A DNA stretch of 64,000 nt, from NCBI GenBank assembly GCA_010093515.1, contig MU001671.1:1497204-1561203 (forward strand). The letters are read 5' to 3'. Each line of letters begins with the position of its first letter. The first letter of the stretch is position 1. The stretch is from Lineolata rhizophorae (lineage: Eukaryota; Ascomycota; Dothideomycetes; Lineolatales; Lineolataceae). Shown here in pieces: positions 36,985-54,428 of the stretch. The notes under the pieces are model-generated. The model ran no database searches, had not been told where the DNA came from, and saw nothing but the letters and a program-made list of their open reading frames with translations. A program made the position numbers and the translations under genes.

Positions 36985-37800
36985 TCACAGCGAGCTCTTC
37001 TTCGGGAACGCGACGCCCTCGACGGCCGGCTCGTCCGTAAACCACGTCACCTTGTCGCCGGCGCCGTCGTTGACCATGGCGGCCGGCAGCTGCCTCCCCT
37101 CGTCGGTGTCGAAGATCTGGCGCAGGATGTCCTTCTTGCCGGCGCCGGTGGCGACGAAGGCGACGCGCAGGCCGTGGGTGCACACGGGCAGGCTGAGCGT
37201 GACGCGGCGCGGCGGCGGCTTGGGCGAGTCCTCGACGGGCAGCACCCAGGCGGCGCTCTCGCGCAGCAGCTCCGACCCCGGGAACAGCGAGCACGTGTGG
37301 CCGTCGGGCCCGCAGCCGAGCAGCAGCAGGTCGAACATGGGCAGCTTGACGCTGTCGCGGGCGGCGAACTGGCGCACCAGCAGCTGCTCGTACTGGTCGG
37401 CGAGCTCCTGGGTATCGTCGAGGTAGGCGACGTCGATGGGGAACACGGCGGGCCGCCAGCGCCGCCCGTCGCCGCCGTCGTCGTCAGCCGGCAGCTTGTC
37501 CACCAGCCCGTCCATGATGGCCTTGTAGTTGCTGTCGGCGTGGTCGAGCGGCACCGCCCGCTCGTCGGCGAAGTAGATCTCCCACCGCGCGAAGTCGACC
37601 ACGTCGCCGGGCGCGCCGCCGCCCTGCGCCGGCAGCAGCGCCGCGGCCAGCTGCGCCGGCAGCGACCCGCCCGACACTGCCACCCGAAACACCGAGTGCC
37701 GCTCGAGCGCGGCGTTCTGCGCGGCGACGACGTAGGAGCGGAGGGAGGCGGCGAGGGCGTCGGGGCTCGCGAAGGCGCAGAGCGTCGGCGGCTTCTTCAT
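36985..37800 (-). CDS. sol3: 6-phosphogluconolactonase (Sol/DevB type)
   Basis: Hydrolyses 6-phosphogluconolactone to 6-phosphogluconate, step two of the oxidative pentose phosphate pathway, in the cytosol. Single exon, 271 aa, start MKKPPTLCAF. Family motifs in order: FRVAVSGGSLPAQLA (phosphate-binding GGS), WEIYFADERAVPLDHADSNY (the DER..P..H.DSN signature), LLLGCGPDGHTCSLFPG, and the late AFVATGAGKKDIL block. Length matches the family. A (GA)8 tract (37846-37861, CT on the coding strand) lies about 46 bp before the ATG. A short acidic-glycine insert (ADDDGGDG) precedes the AVFPIDVAYLDD segment. Confidence 0.95.
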   Translation of the reverse strand: MKKPPTLCAFASPDALAASLRSYVVAAQNAALERHSVFRVAVSGGSLPAQLAAALLPAQGGGAPGDVVDFARWEIYFADERAVPLDHADSNYKAIMDGLVDKLPADDDGGDGRRWRPAVFPIDVAYLDDTQELADQYEQLLVRQFAARDSVKLPMFDLLLLGCGPDGHTCSLFPGSELLRESAAWVLPVEDSPKPPPRRVTLSLPVCTHGLRVAFVATGAGKKDILRQIFDTDEGRQLPAAMVNDGAGDKVTWFTDEPAVEGVAFPKKSSL

Positions 37801-37845
37801 CGCGGCGGTGGCGGGTGCTTGTTTGCGTAGAAGATTGGACGGGCG

Positions 37846-37861
37846 GAGAGAGAGAGAGAGG
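37846..37861 (-). promoter_or_regulatory. CT tract immediately upstream of the 6-phosphogluconolactonase ATG
   Basis: Eight GA repeats on the plus strand, read as CT in the gene's direction, about 46 bp before the start codon. Position fits a 5' leader or initiator pyrimidine tract. Confidence 0.45.
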
Positions 37862-40800
37862 AGGCTGGGCGATTTGGTGCTGGAATTGGGGTCGGGGAGA
37901 GCGCGCTGGGCGGTTTGCTTGTAGAAGGCTGTCGAGGGTTTCGGCGTCGCAGGCCGCCTTGGACGGGAGCGGTTTCACGCCGGCGGCGCCAAGTCGGACG
38001 GGAGTCGGACGCCGCTGCTCGTCGGAGACCTGGAGCAGGCAAGCGAAGCCGGGCGCTTGGGCGGGGGGACGGCGAAGCGCGAGATGTCACACAACGGGGG
38101 GACGTCGCCTGGGGACGGATCGCTGAAGCTGCGGCGGCGGAGGGGCAACGCGCGAGGCCAAATAAACCCATGGTGGGGCACCTCGTCGCCTTCCTCCCAC
38201 CTCCTCCCGCGCCCGCCGCCAGATCCTGCCCAATCACCCAATCTGCCGGCGGACTTGCTGCAGCACGCGCGGTACGGGGCAGCACTCAAGTTGTGACGTC
38301 GTTATCGACGGCGGCCCGGTCCCCCCTGGCAGGCCGCCCTGTGACCCGCCGCGCCTGCACGCGGCCTCGCCCGGCAGCAAACCCATGCTCATCATCCCGT
38401 CGAAGTTTCGCGCGGCGGTTGCCGGGCGAGAGCGAGAGGCTGCTGCATATGTACTGCGTAGGTACGTACCTACCTCCTGATCCACTGATAAGCGGCTGCA
38501 TATGCCTATGTAGGCGGCCCCGCCGTGGTTGTTATTGCGTAACTATCGCCGGCCTGCTTACCGCACTGACGGCCGTTTCGAGCCGGGCGACCGGTCAGCC
38601 ATTCGGCCTTCAAACGGGCAATTCTTCCGTCGTGCCACGACGGCGGACCGCCCCGCATTAAATTGTCATTCCACCCGTGAGACTTGTTCTAGCTGCTTTG
38701 GCGGATGGCTGCGGCAGTTTGAAGTCTGCAGTGGTCCCCGATTGGTTCCTGCGGGGCCCAAGGCTGGGTCTGCTTTTGAGCAGGCCTTGCGTAGGAAAAG
38801 CCGGTTGAATGATTTAGCGGAGAAGCTAGCGTCTAGCTTCTGCTTAAACCATCTACATACGTAGTAAACATTTCTTTTTGACCATCATCCGTCTGTAGGC
38901 TAGGGAAGAGTGGCTTCTTGGCTCGAAGCGGGAGCGGCATCGTATGTGCACTTTGGCAGACGGTCAGAGATACATCGTTTCCTACGATGGCAATTGTTGG
39001 CAGCTATGCAAGGACTCTTCATGCTTGTGAGACGGTCTGAGAGCAAACGAGTCCATGTTGACAATGGTAAGCTTGACTATGTGTTGTGCAAAGGCTAAAT
39101 ATACACCACAGAAGTGTTTCGATTTTTTTTCTTTTTTCTTTTTTTTTTTTAAAAAAAAATTGGTTAGGACGAAACACTGGGAGTTGAAAATATCACCCAC
39201 AGCTACTGAGCTGCTTGAATACCTAGCACTTCAACACTTTCCCTTGTTGTGTACCCCTTTGTTACGTGTTGTGAGATTCTTGTCGAACATTTCCCGATGT
39301 ATACAGCTCCTCGTAGAACCTGCGATGATTGAAAGTTCGAGTCGTACGCAAAAGGCGGTCTGGGAACGGGTGCTCGGTATTGGACATCGTAGACCGCGTC
39401 TCAAACGTGATACGAAGTTTAAATAGTAACCCAAGTTGCCTGGAACGTAGACGGGGATGAAAGGTAAAGCTGTGTACGCCTGATGAGTGGAGCGTAGGCT
39501 ACGACATGAGGTGCTCGAAGTTATCAGCGCTAAGCTGCCACCTGCATCAATTTATGGAGGTATTTGTAGTAATGGGAAGGTCTGTCCTGATTCTTAAGGC
39601 AACTTGACAGCTTCCAGGTGTCTGGTAGATTGCCTTGAGCTCGTCAAGCTCGTTAGTTTATGGTGCATTCAGATGCTGTCTCTGAGCAAAAATGGCGAAA
39701 CCGCTCGTGGTCATACTAAATGTAGACGTATTGACGACTAAGCAAAACACCAGTGCGAACGGTCAAGGACATGGAAATTACCTGTGGGAACGACTCTGCT
39801 CCATGACGTTGCTAGGCTATGTCTTTGCTGCTCACAATCACCTTTGGGCACCCTCCTTGAGCATGCTGTAGGCCTCTATACTTCGTATAACCTTCTCCGT
39901 TCTCTTTCACTCCACGCTAACAGTTTGCTGCCCTCAGTCCCTCTCATTGCCTGCGATTCCTTCTATGCAAGCTTGCTTCTTTTCTCATACATTCTGCTGA
40001 CCCTGAACCCACCTCTGATCCATCAATCTTCTAGCAGAGCCGAATTTGTTGTCGCTTTGTTCTGCACGCCCTTGTGTCATTTTATGCCCATTGTCGCCTA
40101 AGCTCATATCCTATAAAATTTTCGCATAACTGAGAACGAAGCAGTCTTTAGGTGCTACTCGTGTCCATATTCACAGGGCGTTAAGCTAGAGCCTTTTCTG
40201 CCTGCGTTCTACAACGAGGCTACAACCTGCGCTGGCTTTTAAGCCCAACGTAAACACTGGCTCCGCATTTCTTCGCCATGCCACTTTCGCTGCACATATA
40301 CCACACATTTGGTGTCTCCCACTGCATTTTCAAATGGTAAGTTGCTCGCACTATGTTAACTCCCAAGTTTTCTCCATCTACATCCTCGCCATCGCAGACG
40401 GGAAGCTAACCAGTGGAGCTTGGCAGATTCTAGCTACTAAAATCCTCCATACAGCACGTCGTCAAGCGTCAACTACGCCCGTCCTTGCTACCCCGGGTTG
40501 ACCGATGCCCCACGAACCCTTGACTAAGGTAGCACATCACACCCTGTTCTACAACCCTTCACACATCATAGTTAATACCCCGGTCAGAATACCCTAATGT
40601 ACACGGGCCGCTCGCTTGTATATGGGCATTCCGGAGTCTGGCCGATCGAACCCACCCTAGGTAACCGGGGATCTGTGGACGCGGCGGTCGAGATATCTTA
40701 GTGCAAGCCTCTCTTTTTGAGCGGCCCAAGAACGAAGCAATGCCCTTCAGATGGAGGTTGAAAGTAACCCATTTCATCCCCCGCCGTAGGGGGCGTACAT

Positions 40801-42449
40801 AGGTGGTCGGGTCAGAGACCGAGAGTCTTTCGAAGAGACTCGGGCGATTGGAACGCCCCTTTGCGGAGCAGATTTCGATGTCTGGAAAGTCTTAGGAGTC
40901 TCCCTTTCCGTCTTAAATAATCCTAGATTGAGAGCCTTACGATTGTGTATCTAAAATGTTTATTTAGGCATACTTGAATCGGAGAGCTTGCATGTAACCT
41001 GCCCTGGAATCATGTAGATGTCGCTCTGGTGTCTTGCTGCGTTAAGGCATCAAAGTTACAAATACCAGGCGTATAAGAGCGATGCTATCATCATATCATA
41101 GAATAAATCTAGAGCAGCGTTAATTGAAACCAGTACGGTGCCTTACGGTCGTGATTTCCTCATACGGGCATCGAGAGAGCATCTGTTGTCAAAGCCCACG
41201 CCGCACGCGCTGCCGCTTGCTTAAACAGAAAGCAAGTCCATCACCATAAGTGTCGTACCTAGTCTTCGTTTCAAGTACATGACTCCACTGCAGCGCTTCC
41301 GCAATTTTTGCCCGGGGTATCATCACGCTTGTGTGTATGATATTGAATCTCATTAGCGTGTAGTGGGGCCAGCCATACAACTACGTGATGCTCTTTCAAC
41401 TTTGCGTACGATAGCATCTGGTGTCAGATGCACTTCGCTGGTGTGTAGAGCTTACAAGCAAACGCAGATTCTGTCGTCCAAATAATTGTGACTTAAATGC
41501 TCATAATCTAGCGTTCTATATCAACAAAGTTCCTCAGTCTATTCAAGGAACAGGCCAGCGCGACGATTAACTAAGGTATCGAAAACCATAGTGTTTGGCG
41601 CCCTTGTTGAAGAGCATGAAGAAGTAAGAAGGGTGTGTAGGCCAGAAGTGTCTACCCTAGAAGATCTACATATTTGCACATGGTGCGGCTTGCGTGACGG
41701 GCCAGTCTCAGTCAACCCGCTCGTTAGGCCTCGTTGTATAAAAGCCATAGGCTATGTAGGTAGCAAAGTCCTCTAGATAACACATACAAGTTTAGAAAGA
41801 GGACGTGTTATTAAGGAATGAATTCAATTCAACTAAAGCTACGATATCCTCCTCTACCCCACCCCTTCAATAGTAGGGCCAGCAGTACTGCCAGTTGACC
41901 AGGCAGAATTTTTCGTTGGGGAGATTGGCAAGACTGCGGGAGCTGGCGACTCTGATGTCGGCCGTAACGCCCCACGGGGTCAGGCTTGTCACGGCCATGG
42001 AGCTTGAACTGGCCTTGCAAGCTTTTCGCCGTCTCTTTTTCCCTTAGGCAGCGGCCTTAGCCGTCTGATCGAGGAGCGCCTCTACGTTGAAGTTAGGCAT
42101 TGCTAACGCAAGACACCATAAGGTGTTTACAAGCCTCCAAATATGGGGCTGCATTGGACATCGTCTGCCATATTATAGGCGTTTATGGGTGGGTTACCTT
42201 CCCCGCTGGAATTCTTCAGATTCTTGTCTGTAGTATGCTTTCCCGCCCTTTTATCCTGTCCTATTTCACAGCAAGCCATGGCGACTAGGTTTATTCGCCA
42301 GCTTGTCGGCTTGCGCTTGGGAGCCTGGCTCTTCGCAGGCTGGTCGTCAATGTCCATACGAGCCAGCCGGTTTGTGGGAGTCTCCCGACCGCTGGAGTTA
42401 GAGTTTCCTAGCCAAGTCGCTACTCCGGAGTACGGTGGTACCCGTATTT

Positions 42450-42710
42450 TTATTCTTCGTGCTCATTGATCAAAGCAGAGCGGCGACCCCGCTCCTGGCA
42501 TAGTTGCCACGCTGCGAGGAGGAGATCCTTGATACTGTTGGCCGTCACTACCAAGGCGGCGCTGTAATGGGGTAGAGCGTTTGAATACAGAATTTTGATT
42601 CCGTAAATGAGGAAGTCGAGGCTGTCGACAATCTGATGTGGCATTCGGGTCTGAGGTATGGAGCGTGCGAGATTGAAGGTAGTAAACAAGACGGTGCCTA
42701 GTAGTCATGC
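42450..42710 (-). other. Coding-like segment, family not recognised
   Basis: The minus-strand frame 42450-42689 reads smoothly: TRMPHQIVDSLDFLIYGI, then YSNALPHYSAALVV and IKDLLLAAWQLCQERG before a stop. A second smooth stretch lies upstream (about 42830-42930: LLPTSAFMLPTWVLGPATV) and is followed by a GTGAGT donor. These look like exons of one gene or gene remnant, but a full model with a start codon could not be built. No family is proposed. Confidence 0.25.
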
Positions 42711-44353: not shown

Positions 44354-45766
44354 TCATCGTCGGGAGAACCTGTCTCTCCAGGCGGCGAGAGACGACTCGT
44401 TGACCCCTATCGACTACGGCGTCAACACTGAGGCCTTGCACAACGGGAGAGCGCTGGAGACAACCTACCGTATACAATCGCATCGGCAAAACCCTGAACT
44501 ACGATACATGCCTGTGGAGCGCCGGTGAGTAGCGAGGGACATTGGGATGACATATGGAGATTCTCACCTTGTCGACCGTCGCAACGGCGAGAGGAGCAGA
44601 CTGGCCGCTCACGGACTGATATATTCGGATACTGGTAGGTATGACCCAGATCAACATGTACACGAGCGGGTATATCATCATCTTTCCAGCAATCTAAGAG
44701 CGATTAGAGCCTTGTTTCCGTGCGAGAACTGATCATTCGTACCCTTTTCAGCTCGCTATTTGGCTTCGCCACGCTTCCACGCGCCACGTCCACGTTTTCA
44801 CCTTGTCCAACGCTCGCGCCCTCGCCAACAGTGGCCGGCTTCGAACCTCCTGAGTCGAGAAGCTCGGTTGACGAGCGAAGTGTCCCCTCTAAAGCGCCTG
44901 ATCCCGTTCCGATGTCCGCGGCCACCTCGGCGTCTAGCTCGGAGAACCGTGAATGTGCTCGGTAGATGATAAAGTACAAGCGGGTGTAGATGCATAGGAT
45001 GATTGCTATAATGACCCAGCGTGGGAGGAAGTTGACGAGCAGTCGGACTTTGTCGCTAGTGAACCAGCACCCTACGAGATCTTGAGTAACGGCCAACGCT
45101 TGCTTCGGGTTTAGACGTACAAGCTCCAATGTCGTCGTATCCGGCCAGTCCGAGTCCCAGCCCCGCCCACAGAGACGAGAACACCCAGGGGATGCACCAC
45201 AGGTAGATGCGGTGATCCTGGATCCACATGGACTGCTTTCTGTAGTTGGCCAGGATCAAGAACGTGCACGCGGCAATCGTCAGGACCCAGTAATCGGCTG
45301 CTCGGTTAGCTCGGTTCAAGTACCTCGTACGGTGAGCCCTACTTTGAATCACGAAGACTTGAGTCATAAAACCGTTGAAGCTGCAAACCTTGTCTTGAGC
45401 AGGATCTCCAATCATGCGCCCCGAGACGTTGAGACCGGTCGACAGGCAAAAGTTGGCCGCCATACAAAAGTCGCTAATCGCTAGACCTCTACGAACGTTA
45501 GCATTCGCCAATAGCCTACGCGTCTAATACGCACAGAATGAGCTGGTGGCGGAACGATCTCAAGGCTTTGAACACCTATGGTGCGTTAGCTGTTGTCATA
45601 TGGAGACTACTTGGCAGAGCCGCTAACGCACCATAAAGCTCACGATCATCCAAGCTGCACCGACGGCGGACAGTATCGAGACGGCAAGAATAGCCTTGCT
45701 CTGAATCTTGTTTCCTTCTCGGGTCAATGGCGCCGAGAGCACCGTCCGCACTGCGAGCGCCGCCAT
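44354..45766 (-). CDS. Seven-transmembrane G-protein-coupled receptor (fungal GPR1 / cAMP-receptor-like)
   Basis: Eight exons on the minus strand: 45632-45766, 45535-45575, 45343-45488, 45121-45297, 44743-45071, 44568-44693, 44469-44511 and 44354-44406. Introns are 45-62 bp with good donors. Total 349 aa from the Met at 45766. Transmembrane segments are visible in order, with FRHQLIL, LAISDFCMAANFCLS, NVSGRM, FNGFMTQVFVI, TDYWVLTIAACTFLIL, WCIPWVFSSLWAG, DIGAWCWFTSDKVRLL, VNFLPRWVIIAI, YFIIYRAHSRF, then a Ser/Glu-rich third loop, LKRIAGKMMIYPLVYMLIW, IPTSIRIYQ and VVQGFADAIVYGVNES. These match fungal receptors related to Gpr1 and cAMP-type receptors, which signal through Galpha to cAMP. The frame stays open upstream (LYPDAPPGPVDTTH), so a further 5' exon and an earlier start are possible. 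The ligand is unknown. Confidence 0.85.
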
Positions 45767-48700
45767 TCCAACAGCCCGAGCGAGGTGGGTGGTGTCTACC
45801 GGGCCCGGCGGTGCATCTGGATATAGGTACAAAAATTGACCTTTCGATGGGAAGAGACGTGTCGAAAGCGTTCGAATTCTCTGATTTCCAACCCCATGTT
45901 TACGACGGCGACCTGTTTCAATTGCGACCACCCTTATCTGAAGCTTCTCAGTCGACGTCAAGGCGAAAAAGCAAAGAGCTGCAGATCCCAGCTCTATACC
46001 CGAAGCAGAGGCGATTGGCGACAATGTCTTGACCGCGACCGAAATCTATTGGCTGAGAGCATCTGCCAGGCAAAAATATGCATTTTGGAGGTTAGCAATT
46101 GGCTCTAGAATGTTTAGCGTAGCTGGGGTTGACCTGGTCGACCGCGGAAATAGAGATCAAGCCTTACTACACGAGCACTTTGCTCGGAACAAGATCTTTA
46201 GGGGTTGCATCCTACACAAAAATTGCGACCATCTTAGGTGAAGGTCGATGCTGAATGGTTTCGTCTGGACCTTTTGGTTACTCCACTACTACACTTATTC
46301 GCTTGTGCCAATAGGACCAATCACAGCCTTCATCGTTTGTCTTTTCCGCGATGGTTTGCGTCTTTTTGGCCAACCTTTATTCACATGGTGTGTAACCGAG
46401 GAAGCCTTGAAAGGCCCGTTATATCAACTGCTTCTCGCAATCCCTATACACACTTTTTTGTACGCTATAATAAGGCCTTCTTGTGCGCGCTTCTAAACCT
46501 TAGAATACCTAACGCGCGCGTCATGCAGTCTAAAAGCCATTCTCGCGGTCGCATAAATCATCCTTCTGCCAATCGCGATTTGCGGCCCAGACCCTAACCT
46601 GAGCTTTTACGCAGTGGGCTCCCAACGCAGACACGGAGGAATATTCCGCGTTGTAGTCTTGATCAGTACAGTGGCTTTGGGATATCCGACTCAGTCTCTG
46701 AAGTCCTAAGCCTGAAGCGTGCACATGTGAATTGAAGGAGAATAAGAAGAGCAAGAAAAGCAAGGCGAAGGAGGCGAGAGAACTAGCTTTCAAAGCTCGT
46801 GTCTCTATATGGGATACGATCACCTTTTCTTCTGGTGTTAGTTCGTCTGCCTAGGGCCTAGGGAGAACGCAGTACGACGCTACGCTAGAGGCAACTAGAG
46901 TAGGATGCAACAAACGCTGCGCATTTTGCGCGGAAGGTAAGGCAAGACTAAGGCATTTGAAGTATTGCTCATGCTCAATGTGAAAGATCGATTCTCCTAC
47001 GGTATGCATTAGACGCAAAGAATGCTAATTTACATATGCCAACGCTATCCTCGTCCTCGAAGGCGCCATGCACATGAATAAAATCTTGCCATCATTGTCC
47101 CACTCCATTTAGCCTCGTGGGAGGTACCCACTGCCGAAAAGGTAGCCATCATGCGGAGTCGGTTCTAACATAGAAACAACTCTCATCTAACAGGTTCTAC
47201 ATGACCCCAATCCGCACACCGCCTCTTTCCTTTCCCGCTCAGGGAACTGAGCTATCCCTGCTTCAGCCTGGGCTGTGGCTGTGTTGGCGTGAGTGGATCC
47301 TAAGGTTGAGGTTGAGCAGCCTGAGCTTGGCCCGGCACCGCTCAGTGCCGGGTTTTGGGCCCTCTCCATAGCTCGGAAGGCATACCTACATGTTGTGTAC
47401 AACAGTAAATGCTACTAAAACACTTCGTATCGCTGACTGATTGCGTGAGCTCCTAAGTGCCAACCTCATCCGGCACAGCTGAAGTTCAATGCGAACAGCC
47501 CGTGCTGTCTAGTTAGGTGCGACGATCCATCCTTTGCGGTTTCGTGACGGTAGAATGCGGCGCGGGTTGCGCGCAGCCAATCAATCGTGTTACTAAAAAC
47601 TTTAAGACAGCTTTAAACTTCGGACTCGGTGGTATTCCCTACAAGGTGAACGAACAGACATGAGGTAGGCTAATTAGATCTTGTTCAACATTCTCCAGCT
47701 CACCTACTGCTAACCACGTCAGGGCGAGCATGAGTCAAAACGACACGCTCGCGAAGGACGTCCACCATCCCTAGGATAGATATGCGAGATTACGGAATGC
47801 GACCCGTTTGGTATCACCGGCTAGTTGGCCCTTAATCGATATGAACATAACTGCAGTTGAAAACGTCACATACTACACGTATTAATACGAGCTCAACGCG
47901 TCTTTATGCTAGCGCATTTAGCTAGCTGACATTCCCCACACCCTGCCTAGCAACATCCTTTGTCCGCGCGCAAAATCTACCGCGACAGGACGATGACTAT
48001 GAGATGGTCGATGACGACGTCCGCTCTCTTTAAAACCTACTACAGCCGGAGCCACTCGAAAACGACTTGGATGACCATACTACGATTCTTACAATGCTTT
48101 CGCCGGTCGAGGTCACGCGGATAAGCATTCAGTTAAGAAAAGGAGATACGAAAGCGAGATTCGAAATCTGCTGGAGTGTTACGGAAACGCCTGGCTAGGA
48201 ACGTTAGGTTTACCTCACATCATCTAGCTTCCTGGTAAGTCTGACGGGGAAGTGGTGTTTCTAAAGTTCAAGTCTCGGGTTGTCATTATAGTATTAACCG
48301 ACTCGCTCACTGTTTACAAGTCCTGGATCTTGCAACTGATTGACGGCCTCGATTACTTCCATTCTGTAAAAATTACCTATCGCGACCTGTGAGTCGATAA
48401 CCTTCTCTTCTCTCTTGATGGATCGTGCTTGACCATTTGTGGTCTCGAGTCGCAGTGGGGAAATCGTCTGGCACCCGAGGTTTCCCGCGAGCCTATTCTG
48501 GACGTTGGTTAGACGGAGAAATCCGACATCTACGATAAAGTCCATGATGTACGCAAATGTGCCAATCACAAATAAGGTGGAATTGTCTGCACCTCATCCT
48601 CTTGATGCGGTTGTGAAGGTGTGCACACGTTATGTACCCGGGAAACGGTCAAGCTAAGAGGATCTGCACGTTATAGTGGAAAGAATTGGAAGCTCTTGAG

Positions 48701-49199
48701 CCTAGAAGGATGTATATTCAATGGGCATTTACACGTAGCATCCAAAAGAAGAATATCATAGAATTTTCCCTACAAACATATTGGTAACAACCGCATCAGT
48801 CTTAGAGGCAAGTGCAATATGCTTCGCATATTAGCAAGACTTTCTCATGTCATGTTTGATTAGAAGCCTTGCACCAAGCCATTCGGTTGCCCGAAGAAAG
48901 TTACAAACAATACTTCCGTTTACTAGGTCGATGTATAAGAAAATCTGGTTCATACACATAGCAATCGATCAAGTAACTTGCCGATGAGCGTGCATATCCC
49001 TCAATGCTAAATTTAGGAACAACTTAAATTTGAAAGATAGGTGAACCGAGGGATCTGTCGCTGCATAAGATGTTGTCTCCTATATTTCTTTTAGTGATAT
49101 TATATCTAGAATGTCATAGAAAAACTTTTGAAAGTTTACGACTAGCTACAGCTTTAGGTGCCTTAGGAATATCTCTAACATGACGCTGTCTAACTTATT
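45767..49199. other. Gene-poor island, middle part
   Basis: Includes the GPCR promoter on the left. The rest is AT-rich with short frames. A minus-strand frame at 48294-48569 reads smoothly (FIVDVGFLRLTNVQNRLAG, VIDSQVAIG) and may be a gene remnant, but nothing flanks it. No RNA gene or intact protein gene was recognised. Confidence 0.45.
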
Positions 49200-50090
49200 A
49201 GGGGTGATTTAGCGCCGTACCTTCATATAAGGTACTATTCCGGGTCATACCCATATCGCACGTAATAACGTACGCCACAATAACTATGTCTTCTTTCGCG
49301 GGATTCTATACGGTCTCGGTATAGTCTTCTACCTGAGCTTCGTTACTCCGTATAAATAACCTCAGTATACTTTTTCATGACTCGGTATACTCGATCTTTT
49401 TGCCTCCTATTAAGTCATCAATATAGTACAGACCAAGAACGCTAATACGAGTAGTAAGGCGCTGGAATTCCTTGATAAACTTAGCTGGCAGTATAGTCGT
49501 AACCCTCGTAGTAAACTTATATAGATATAGTTCTCTATAGTTAAATAGGAGTTAAATAGGTCGGAGCCCTTTCCTTTATCGATTTAGGAATTTTCTACCT
49601 AAGCACGTCCTTTATATACCTTCTCTTATTCTCTTAGAGATTAGCAACTATACTTAGATAATAATGGTCCCTAGACGCTTATCGGGGCTACTAAGTTATA
49701 GAAATCCGTAGGAACGATCTCGTTTATCGCCCGCCGCCACGCGGATATAAATTTTCATATCTTGTTTCGTACCGATTTAACCGTTCCTCTATTCGGCCTT
49801 TTATCTAATCTCGGCTTAGTTGCGTACACGACCGTCTCCGTAAAGTACTTTATATCTTCTATATCGCGCGGGTCGCGACCTGGGAGTCTCCTCTCGTAGC
49901 TATGGTATATTAGTGCTGTTTCTAGACGTAACTTAGTGATACTGGCAATGTATGCTCGCTAGAATTTCATCATGCTGTCGTACTGCGGTTCACTACCGCA
50001 GGTAAACTTCTATAGACAGGGTTGCTGCCAATCCCAATAGATCTGTAGAGAGTCTATCTATACAGTCGTATCGATCTGATCGTCTAGATC
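49200..50090 (-). pseudogene. Decayed DUF3435-type tyrosine recombinase (Starship captain-like relic)
   Basis: Reading the minus strand, the longest surviving stretch (about 49790-49930) contains YHSYERRLPGRDPRDIED followed by IKYFTETVVYATKP, LDKRPNRGTVKSVRNK, and then, shortly after, ISAWRRAINEIVPTDFYN. Further on TIENYIYI is seen. These words recall fungal DUF3435 proteins, a tyrosine-recombinase family that includes the captains of Starship elements. The region is extremely TA-rich (TATA, GTATA and CTATA throughout) and interrupted many times in all frames, the picture left by RIP. No catalytic Arg/Tyr box can be assigned. It is clearly non-functional. Assignment is by remembered motif pattern, not by search. 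Confidence 0.5.
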
Positions 50091-52197
50091 TGCTATTTTT
50101 TTAACCCTTTTTAGGTCGGGTATTCATGGCCTGTGGAATTCCGACCGCGCCAAAGTACAGGCTGTAGTAGAAAAAGGCAGTAGCATTAGAGAGACGGTGG
50201 AAGCGATGAAACAAAAATAAAAGGAGAGGTGGAAAAAAACACAGGAGAGCAAGAGAAAGACGGGCCATGTTATAGAGTAGTGCACTCCACGTCGAGGAGG
50301 ACAAGGGCAGACAATCCCCCCATGGAGAGGAGCTCGAACTCTAGAATTTGTAAATCGTGCGTAGGGCCGCATTTCGACCTGAGCCGACCTGACCCGGGCC
50401 GCGCCACAGCGGCGCAAAGTCACATGAGCAGAAGGTTCAGGCAGCGTGTGGATTGAAGCCGTATAACAGTGTAAATATTACGTCGGGGTCCTGTCAACTC
50501 CTAAGATCGGAGTCATACTCCCGCCGTAACATAATCATCCGCGCTATATACAATTCAACCGGCTCACTTGAAGAGGGACAAAGATTCTGATAAAAAGTCT
50601 GCCGGCTGGTCATCCAGTCACTGTTCAACAGGAAAGAGCGCCGACAGCGTTGTTGGCGTTGTCGTAATCGACGTCCTCCTTCCATCCGACTGAGCCTAAC
50701 ATCACAAGGATACGTTGAATGCGCCACCGCATCTCCAGCAGGCCCGGGTTTGGGAGCGGTTTTTGTGGCGATGGGCTTCGTGGGGTTGTGGAAACGACAG
50801 AACGCGAAACTACGGCAAGAGAGTTCGTCTGATCACAAGAGTAAGAGGATGCTCCATAAAGTCCACGTTTACAGTTGAATCACGATGTGATTGTGTAAGT
50901 AAGTAGAACTCTAGGTCGTGACTTTTGTCTGAGGCGTTCTTAAAATGAAAGCAATGGAAGGTTGACGTAAGAGTTAGCATGTTGTCCGCCGTCTCGCTTT
51001 CTAGTTGTGTCGTAGTCCTGCCATCCCGAAAATTCTTGTTATACCACAAATCCTCCTTGTCCGTGGGCCAGAACACCCAGAGAATATCCCGGACCCTTTT
51101 TGCCAAAGGTGCATCATGGTAAAGATGGATGTTTAAGGTTGTGCTCGGAACGACATGACCGGGCTTGGAGGGATTATCACAATCTTGATATCATTAGATC
51201 GTGACGGCTGATGAATGACTGAGTTTGGGCCATCTCTAGTTTGGTGTCTAGCGTATAGGATTAACAAAGATACTGCCGACGGTTTAGAATTAGTATCCCT
51301 TAAGCTCTAGGCTCTGGCATAATTAAGAAGGTTACTTTATAGTGGTACCGGTAGTCCGTTTCGATCCTTGTCGAGGATGCTGATACGAAACATTGGCAGG
51401 AGTACTTGGCTTGGAGCCGATACCGTGGAAGAGAAGCGGTAGATGATGATAGCGGCTTTAGATGCTGATGTTCGGACGGTACCCGTATCTTCGACGAATC
51501 GTCTGCGTTCATCTAAGCACCTGCTGAAGTATTCGATGTCATCGTTAGGGGTGCAGTATACCCAGCTTGAAGACATGATGCTGGCATTGATCAATAAAGT
51601 GAAGAAGATACAGAATCGAAGTAGTAAAAGATAATTGTTCTTCTAAACACACGGCAGGCGGCGGTGAAGAACATGGAAATGGAAGAAGAGGGACAACCAA
51701 GGGCGACTTTGCCGTCATGACATTAGTTGCGGGCAGGCGTGACTCTTCGCTACGCCGAAGCTAGTACAGAACCTTCGGACAGCCGGTGGCAATGGCGCGC
51801 GATACAAACTGGGAAGGAACAAGGCCGGTTGAGCTGCCGTGCCGGACGCGAGGGCGGAGCGAATTTGCCACGCCCCATTCCGCACGCGCCAAGGCTCGTT
51901 CGGAGCGCGCTGTGAATTCGCTGCGCGATCGGTCCAGAAAGGGTGGACGACGACGCCAGCCCGCCAAAGGCGGGGCCAAGAAACGGGATGGATACGACGG
52001 ACAGCGAGCGCAAGCTTCGTCGGTGGACGAAGCCGAGTCGGACATCATGTACATAGGTGCAACTCAGCGGAACTCATTGACGGCGGCCAAGTGCCATTGG
52101 GTCGGAATGAGCCGGAGTGACCTTGCAACCACCGTTTGCAATTAAGTGCCACTGTATTCTCAGTACATGATCGCATAACATACGGGAAACACGAATC
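50091..52197. other. Gene-poor island, right part
   Basis: Mixed composition, still poor in open frames until about 51750, then rising GC next to the TCF25-like gene. A minus-strand frame (51337-51594) contains MSSSWVYCTPNDDIEYF and could code a ~79 aa peptide, but it has no recognised relatives and no supporting context. Nothing else was recognised. Confidence 0.4.
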
Positions 52198-54169
52198 CTA
52201 GTCATCTTCCTGGCGGTGCGCCCCGCCAAGCTGGACCATAAGCTCCTGAACCCGCCGCAGGCGCTCCTGCATCGTCTGCATCGAGATGCCCGTCTCGGCG
52301 AGGAAGTGCAACCTGGCCTCATCCGACGCGTCGCCTTGGGCGGACTCGAAGAGCTGCCGTTGCTCAAGGAAGAAGTGCGTCAGATCGTCTAATTCCTGCT
52401 GCATCTGCTCTCTACTGGTGGGCCGCGGCCGCTCGATGCGGTACGGCGAAAGGCTTTGTGGCGGCGGTAGGGGGTCGAAGGAGCTGAGGTCGCGGCCTTT
52501 GATTGACGACGCGACGAGCGAGACGAGTTCGGGCTTGTCCACTAGCAACACGTGCCGCGCGACGTTGTCCGAGATGGGCCTGTCGTCTACTTGCGCGGAG
52601 TCTGGCTTCGCATAGGAGGCCACCTCGGACAGCAGAGCGGTGGCCTCGGGCGTGTTCCAGAGGTCGCGTGCGCTCGAGACATACAGTCTCGTAGACAGCG
52701 TCTCCCAGAGTGAGCGGGGCTTGCGGCCCCAGATGGCGGGCGGGATGGGCTCGAGGTTTAGCTCGCGGAAGAGCGCCGCGGCCACCCAAGGCGCATCCTC
52801 GATGGCGGAGCGTAGCTTCTCGCGGCCGAGGCGGGCATCGCCGGCCTGTACATGGGCTAGCCCGACGGAGTACTGAACGTTACAGAGACCCCGCCAACGC
52901 TCCTCGAACCAGGGGCTCTCAGCCAGGTCGACGATGGCCTTGGGCTGGCGCGCGCGGAGGGCGAACTGATCAAGGGCCAGGCAAACGCCGTAGGGGTCGC
53001 CGGCCGGGTCGAGGCTCAGCGTGAGCCTGGCCCACTCGAAGACGGTCCGCCACGTCGCGCGCATTCCTAGGTTAGACACGTACCGCCAGGCAGCCAGCCA
53101 AAACTCGCGGTTCTCCTGACTCGCAAAGTCCAGCCGGGCCTTGCCCTGGGCCAGCTTGGCGGCAAAGGTCGAGTGCACAGCGCGGCCGAAGGAGAAGAGG
53201 GCGCGCTCGAGGAGGTCGCCCGAGGTAGTGTGGTCACGCTCTTGCTTGGCAATCTCTGAGACCTGGAGAAGGGTGGCGACGTGGTAGGCTGAACTGTCAG
53301 CTGGGAAAGCGATCGCTGGGCGGGATCTGGAACTCACGATTGAAGCGAAGGAGGGATATCATCCGCTCGTGGTCCATGATCGCGACGCACTCGAGAAATT
53401 GCCGCTGCACATCCTGGTACGCGCTGCCGTGCACGAAACGATACTCGGTGGTGCCGTCAGAGTGGCGCTCGACGACCTCCATACCTAGCCCGCCGCTCGT
53501 GCCGCGCGGCCACTCCTCCTTGCCCTGGACGAAGACGTTGCGGCGCAGGCCGAGTGCTCCGAGCCCGCCGCGAGCAGCTCCCTGGCGGCCCGCGGTAGTC
53601 TGAGCACCGCCGCGCCCTCCTCGGCGACGGCCGCCGTTGTCATCGTCATCATCATAGGCTCCCTGTAGAGCCGCCCTGCCAAACAGGCGGCGCATCTCGT
53701 TGGCAGCCTGCAAGTGCTGCGTGTCGATGGCGAGCAGGTTGTACGGCTGGGCGTCGCCATCCCTGGGCGAGGCAGTCTCACCTCCCCACGCGCGGCGCAA
53801 CTCCAGGTCGAGTGAGCGGATGGCCTGCTCGATTTCTTCCAGCTGAGTGGACGCATTGCTGGTCCTGGGCGGCGAGGATTTCCGCTTGCCTTTCTTCTTC
53901 CTTTTCTTCTTCCTCCTGGCCCCGGCCGCGGGTGTCTCGGGCTCTTCCAGTGTGGGCTCTCCTGGCGTTTCGTCTGGAGAATCGCCTTCATCTCTATCAT
54001 CGAGCATCGCGAACATGCTAGTCTTAGTCGCAGGCGCGGGCCCGCCGTCGTCGTCGTTATCGTCGTCGTCGTCGCCGTCTTCGCCGTCGATCTCGGCTTC
54101 GGACGCCCTGCGGAGCCGCTTCTGCTCCTCCTTCTCGCGCTGCGCGCGACGCAGCGCCCGGGACGACAT
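52198..54169 (-). CDS. rqc1: TCF25/Rqc1-family protein (ribosome quality control)
   Basis: Homologue of yeast Rqc1 and human TCF25, which act with Ltn1 and Rqc2 on stalled 60S nascent chains. Two exons, 53338-54169 and 52198-53288 (49-bp intron), 640 aa. The start MSSRALRRAQREKEEQ is followed by a long acidic run and a Lys/Arg-rich block (RRKKKRKKKGKRK), typical of the family N-terminus. The splice joins LLRFN to PYHVATLLQVSEI, the family hallmark after the N-terminal region. The C-terminal domain is helical with SGDLLERALFSFGRA, WRYVSNLGMRATWRT, DPYGVCLALDQFALR, YSVGLAHVQAGD and ALFRELNLEPIPPAIWG. Divergent from the PP2C gene with 259 bp between starts. Confidence 0.92.
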
Positions 54170-54428
54170 GGTTGAGGCTCAGACAAATGCGGGCAAGTGG
54201 AGGCGACAACTGAAACTATGCTCAAGCAGCTCTTCGGCGTTAGTAAAAGCTTAGGAAATCTAGATCAAGAGTATGTAGAGACTTATTCAGAGGCGTGTAA
54301 CCGACTGACGTTGCTTGACGTTGCATCCCTGCACCGTGCATTCCGGCCCGACACCGGCCGACCGCCGGCGTCCCAACCCCGAAGTCAACACCGCCTTCGC
54401 CCAGTCTCCGTCAATCATCACCTCCCCG
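54170..54428. promoter_or_regulatory. Shared divergent promoter, TCF25-like / mitochondrial PP2C genes
   Basis: 259 bp between two divergent start codons (54169 minus, 54429 plus). Both promoters must lie here. No canonical TATA was seen. Confidence 0.65.

Follow-up and report, generated by a model that had tools for sequence, protein, structure and literature searches.

A probable RIP-killed duplicate of a solo, captain-like tyrosine recombinase gene in Lineolata rhizophorae

A stretch of 64,000 nucleotides of contig C2 of Lineolata rhizophorae (the window), compared with the genome to which it belongs (30.97 Mb in 48 contigs), holds near 49.1–50.34 kb what is probably, at roughly 70%, a dead duplicate, truncated at its 3' end and killed by RIP, of a solo gene for a captain-like (DUF3435-related) tyrosine recombinase. 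RIP is a change of C to T, chiefly at CpA, that takes place in the sexual cycle and marks duplicated DNA. The window copy is a relic and no working member of its family; its coding part covers about 340 codons by span and is read towards lower coordinates, in the direction that the first-pass annotation of this DNA had given, its frame is broken, and translation shows stops in all frames. The relic and its parts are as follows.

49100..50340, minus strand: RIP-marked relic, a 5' flank plus a piece of a probable DUF3435-like recombinase gene, delimited by RIP indices and DNA homology to contig C22
49674..49958, minus strand: coding piece in the best state of preservation, an N-terminal domain interrupted by one TGA, from translation and protein matches
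50125..50127, minus strand: candidate start codon, aligned with the ATG of the C22 copy, from pairwise alignment and translation
50128..50337, minus strand: 5' flank common to the C22 copy, 64% identical over 184 aligned columns

The peptide words from which a decayed DUF3435 recombinase had been proposed are real. A single minus-strand frame, from about 49958 to 49674, holds ERRLPGRDPRDIED, ETVVYATKP, KSVRNK and SAWRRAINEIVP, with its single TGA between KSVRNKI and KFISAWRR, and this frame has homologs on contigs C22 and C14. The interval first assigned to the gene, 49200..50090, contains these words and falls slightly short of the relic, which spans 49.1–50.34 kb. The open piece of 67 amino acids found in the relic is one among 132 stop-to-stop frames of at least 60 amino acids between 36 and 54 kb, and homology was therefore needed to decide on the presence of a gene. 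Searched against its own genome, the relic DNA finds one other place, on C22 (69% identity, query 1–573, E 1.4e-46), and a more sensitive alignment extends the match to window positions 49466–50337 against C22:60055–60891 (65% over 903 columns, E 6e-81), so that the homologous DNA is limited in the window by 49.47 kb and 50.34 kb and includes about 210 bp of 5' flank; the gapped protein alignment continues weakly to about 50.39 kb. At the protein level the relic peptide matches C22:60329 (51%, E 3.1e-10) and C14:280209 (35%, E 1.6e-10), with C39:78531 as a marginal match (29%, E 0.05). Two other weak protein matches lie at C37:125456 (E 0.005) and C13:727214 (E 0.07). Because the relic DNA aligns with C22 and the relic peptide matches both C14 and C22, the words are not a product of chance. 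The stops in all frames and the lack of a direct family match are what a chance match with no gene behind it would offer in its favour, and against it stand the C22 and C14 matches and the coincidence of the RIP footprint with the homologous block; this highly improbable reading is already refuted by the C22 copy. A third copy on C8 was considered and rejected, since the C8 segment matches only 50532–51100 and no relic is visible beside it. On C22 itself, at 43.8–43.9 kb (L041 1844–1936, minus strand), about 16 kb from the C22 relic, lies a possible second DUF3435-like N-terminal fragment; it sits in a RIP-positive bin, and the match is weak (E 0.77) and was judged by eye.

A bin was called RIP-positive when TpA/ApT was at least 1.1 and (CpA+TpG)/(ApC+GpT) at most 0.75. 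In the window, 2 of the 128 bins of 500 bp are RIP-positive, namely 49001–49500 and 49501–50000, both of them in the relic. The segment 49101–50100 (TpA/ApT 1.43, (CpA+TpG)/(ApC+GpT) 0.53) has the highest 1-kb composite index (CRI) of the window, 0.90, a value reached by none of 10000 base shuffles; 36 of 631 sliding 1-kb windows have an index above 0 and the best of those that do not overlap the relic is 0.25. In 300-bp steps the CRI jumps from -0.63 at 48801–49100 to +0.98 at 49101–49400 and is down to -0.06 at 50151–50450, and the rest of 47–51.3 kb contains weak positive steps only (at most 0.35 at 47.45–48.5 kb and 0.31 at 50751–51050). The edges of the RIP signal and of the DNA homology nearly coincide at about 50.3 kb. 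On C22 the strong signal covers about 59.5–60.85 kb, and a weaker tail (58.6–59.5 kb, CRI 0.2–0.5) is set off from it by a near-zero step. Of the 400 bins in 20 stretches of 10 kb, selected near repeat and DUF3435 matches, 7 were RIP-positive, two of which belong to the C22 copy; the C14 and C39 loci have no RIP-positive bin. The duplicated unit looks gene-sized, since the RIP signal extends no further down than about 49.1 kb in the window and, tail included, about 58.6 kb on C22.

The relic thus has three marks of a RIP-mutated repeat: its indices, a duplicated partner on C22 and an excess of transitions between the two copies (over 814 aligned columns, 67.2% identical, transitions number 174 and transversions 93). 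No CpA bias was seen between the copies; CpA accounts for 34 and CpG for 47 of the 172 transitions whose context was classified, so that the dinucleotide indices, with the transition excess, carry the case for RIP. The first-pass annotation had described the surroundings as saturated with TpA, as after RIP: the TpA excess and the loss of CpA/TpG hold for 49101–50100, and saturation of the surroundings is not borne out. When the indices were followed along 38–52 kb, as had been proposed there, the relic was positive and none of the 22 bins of 38–49 kb was (mean CRI -0.17). This mean exceeds the -0.47 of the window's remaining low-GC bins (n=30; Mann-Whitney p 0.006) and is near the -0.28 of the low-GC bins of the other loci sampled (n=246).

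The relic is probably a DUF3435-like tyrosine recombinase, an identity that is not proven and that is reached through C14, whose 3' half comes near the DUF3435 cut-off, and through mixed profile comparisons. Direct scans of the window piece gave no Pfam or NCBIfam match, which in the case of Pfam says little since the N-terminal domain of a canonical DUF3435 gene on C27, the sole control, likewise has no DUF3435 match; the recombinase proposed in the first-pass annotation stands as a decayed gene of probable family. A six-frame Pfam scan of 38.3–52.3 kb (E 0.5, stops as X) returned no DUF3435 and only sub-threshold GPCR and kinase matches, and none of seven in-frame canonical DUF3435 pieces searched against the window matched the relic (best E 0.029, at 21 kb). 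In both C14 and C39 the N-terminal piece has a second conserved half behind it on the same strand, and the two loci share that half at 47% and 36% identity in two stretches. The locus at C18:316 kb matches the N-terminal piece marginally (25 residues, E 0.05) and the shared 3' half better (34% over 59 residues, E 1.1e-4). The 3' half of C14 matches positions 227–331 of Pfam DUF3435 (E 7.9e-6, 25.5 bits, below the cut-off of 25.8), a score to which a coiled-coil stretch contributes: after trimming, E is 0.011 and 0.026, and the match is lost when the half is split. A mid piece of C39 matches DUF3435 positions 125–155 weakly (E 0.15), in collinear order with the C14 match, and the C39 3' piece has no Pfam match. 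An H-x-x-R box is found in C14 and C39, and in C18:316 kb with a stop inside the box; a YL/HYL element is also found in C14 and C39. These elements resemble the catalytic motifs of tyrosine recombinases.

Of the profile comparisons, one was clear of its shuffles and three were not. A four-row N-terminal alignment compared with three canonical DUF3435 N-termini scored 21.25 (probability 14%, E 0.0019) and exceeded all 200 column shuffles (highest 18.16). Adding C18:316 kb lowered the score to 14.9, a value that 4 of 150 shuffles surpassed; shuffles also surpassed the middle comparison (12.5; at least 6 of 150) and the C-terminal one (16.2; 5 of 200). These three results, together with Pfam support that is sub-threshold and partly coiled-coil, are what speaks for a smaller transposon or a host gene family unrelated to DUF3435, such as another fungal tyrosine-recombinase element or a gene of a different fold. 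We consider such an origin improbable, as C14 has DUF3435 as its best family and the C39 mid piece has it, weakly, as its sole one, at collinear model positions, and the alternative Pfam families for the longer pieces are weak (E 0.08 to 0.22); the isolated coil alone prefers PspAA (E 0.011). A PDB search yielded nothing useful, the predicted structure of the window piece (pLDDT 54) is too poor for use, and among viral contigs 49 pattern matches included no relative.

The second half of the recombinase was not detected in the window: tblastn with the C14 and C39 3' halves found no relative there, and nothing correctly placed was detected in the window or near the C22 copy (best E 0.63). The catalytic R, HxxR and Y of a tyrosine recombinase were accordingly not found in the window copy, as the 3' half would hold them. 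For the preferred reading, that of a RIP-killed duplicate of a solo gene, the following course of events may be proposed. A gene-sized piece, which begins about 210 bp ahead of the start codon and extends into coding sequence, would have come to at least two places, the window and C22. RIP would have recognised the duplication in the sexual cycle and mutated both copies, adding stops and raising TpA, and ordinary mutation would have added further changes to both. The window copy would have lost, or would never have had, the catalytic 3' half, and the edge at about 50.3 kb would show where the duplicated unit stopped on its 5' side. An intact version of the protein would presumably have cut and rejoined DNA by means of its active-site tyrosine, as captains do.

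In Starships, the captain is the first gene at the 5' end and is transcribed into the element, which is flanked by direct repeats and sometimes has terminal inverted repeats. The first-pass annotation had proposed that 38–50 kb may be the carcass of such a cargo-carrying element, and the genes of this region are the following.

36985..37974, minus strand: flanking gene of the 6-phosphogluconolactonase family (Glucosamine_iso, E 1e-65)
44560..45766, minus strand: GPCR gene (Git3-like), inside the proposed carcass and outside the relic, exon pieces open
48159..48572, plus strand: protein-kinase pseudogene fragment, outside the relic (Pkinase, E 9.2e-6, 25.7 bits, below the cut-off of 31.7)
52198..54178, minus strand: flanking gene of the TCF25 family (Tcf25, E 1.2e-64 for 52198–53358)

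The second piece of the TCF25 gene, 53297–54178, is below the cut-off (E 7.9e-5). The exon pieces of the GPCR gene, joined by hand with X, match Git3 at E 9.9e-10 (39.1 bits, cut-off 24.2), and a 107-amino-acid piece of it finds no other genomic place at E 0.001. The kinase fragment has one TGA and two TAG stops, and other genomic places match it at 38–41% only.

A captain at the end of a degraded Starship would have its 5' boundary at about 50.34 kb and its cargo towards lower coordinates, with sister elements that carried other cargo; only the captain would have been RIP-mutated because it was all that the sister elements had in common. The orientation of the relic fits, the limit of the DNA homology and of the RIP signal, about 210 bp ahead of the start codon, is what the end of an element would predict, and the island below is GC-poor, with the kinase fragment and three diverged repeats. 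There is also a precedent in Sanctuary and Frontier, where, according to the available part of the report, the captains of sister elements are almost identical in sequence and their cargo apparently differs, and one of the captains is RIP-mutated (PMC12257634). These features are compatible with the placement of a captain and define no element. There is no second boundary and no cargo common to C22: outside the relic, 38.2–52.2 kb matches nothing in the 30-kb neighbourhood of the C22 copy that was examined, and one further match, of 170 GC-rich columns (65%), lies inside the flanking 6-phosphogluconolactonase gene. Inverted repeats of at least 16 nt number five pairs in 37.9–52.3 kb (17–25 nt, 72–89% complementary), none of which has an arm at the relic edge or links it to a boundary. 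The carcass is disfavoured since 38–49 kb is RIP-negative, the GPCR exon pieces inside it are open and no DNA flanking the relic within 38.2–52.2 kb is shared with the stretch examined on C22. A published RIP-mutated Starship had a positive CRI over the whole element, in the portion of the source at hand (PMC11905480), and the solo state is the commoner one for DUF3435 genes, as far as the excerpted text of another study goes (PMC12134995). A Starship origin is therefore unlikely; no trace of a surrounding giant element emerged from the tests made, and nothing shows that the relic was the captain of one.

Three repeats of the region were seen in passing. The segment 50532–51100 is 60% identical over 646 columns to C8:1209.7–1210.4 kb, is similar in translation on both strands and has one ORF that was scanned and matched no Pfam family; 47101–47361 is a short interspersed repeat, 70–83% identical to places on C7, C35 and C23; and two pieces of 41990–42559 resemble C1:158.3–159.9 kb in swapped order, suggesting rearranged debris.

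Among known systems, the solo (non-captain) DUF3435 genes of Pezizomycotina (PF11917) are alike in their dispersed copies, broken frames, lack of a detectable boundary and probable family, but the window copy is truncated and too decayed to be scored directly, and its relatives barely reach the Pfam model. The RIP-mutated Frontier captain, as far as the available description extends, shares with the relic the action of RIP on a captain-like gene with a close partner elsewhere; however, it heads a named element, whereas the relic has no demonstrated cargo, direct repeats or empty site, and the relic and its C22 partner are 65–67% identical, as against over 98% for the Frontier captain and its partner (PMC12257634). 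The gene-poor Starship of Gaeumannomyces tritici type A likewise combines a gene-poor region, a tyrosine recombinase and RIP, but in the accessible portion of that account its RIP is element-wide, with an average CRI of 0.2–0.3, against about 1.2 kb for the relic (PMC11905480). In the available literature the majority of such genes have no element assigned to them: in Verticillium, 21% of 556 captain-like genes lay in Starships found by Starfish, according to the part of the article available (PMC12289983). Another study, in its available text, calls it unclear if solo DUF3435 genes are pseudogenes or arise where Starship boundaries were missed (PMC12134995).

Taken alone, the locus is an ordinary pseudogene, and it adds a caution that a RIP-scarred DUF3435 fragment beside a gene-poor interval need not imply a Starship. 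A further, doubtful idea is that the captain-like gene spread by itself with a short 5' flank and no cargo, the RIP footprint measuring the unit that was duplicated. Since duplicated DNA is what RIP marks, a footprint about 1.2 kb long in the window and one of 1.3 to 2.2 kb on C22 (without or with the weaker tail) would mean cargo-free spread. If true, some solo DUF3435 genes would be small self-moving elements and not leftovers of giant ones. The footprint would offer an independent estimate of the length of DNA duplicated with a solo DUF3435 gene, and footprints over many solo copies could help to separate the missed-boundary view from the pseudogene view. Two canonical DUF3435 genes in a better state of preservation, each with some in-frame stops, lie at C27:452.8–454.2 kb (L026), about 8 kb from a contig end, and at C18:60.3–61.6 kb (L025); for a Starship search they are more promising starting points than the relic in the window.
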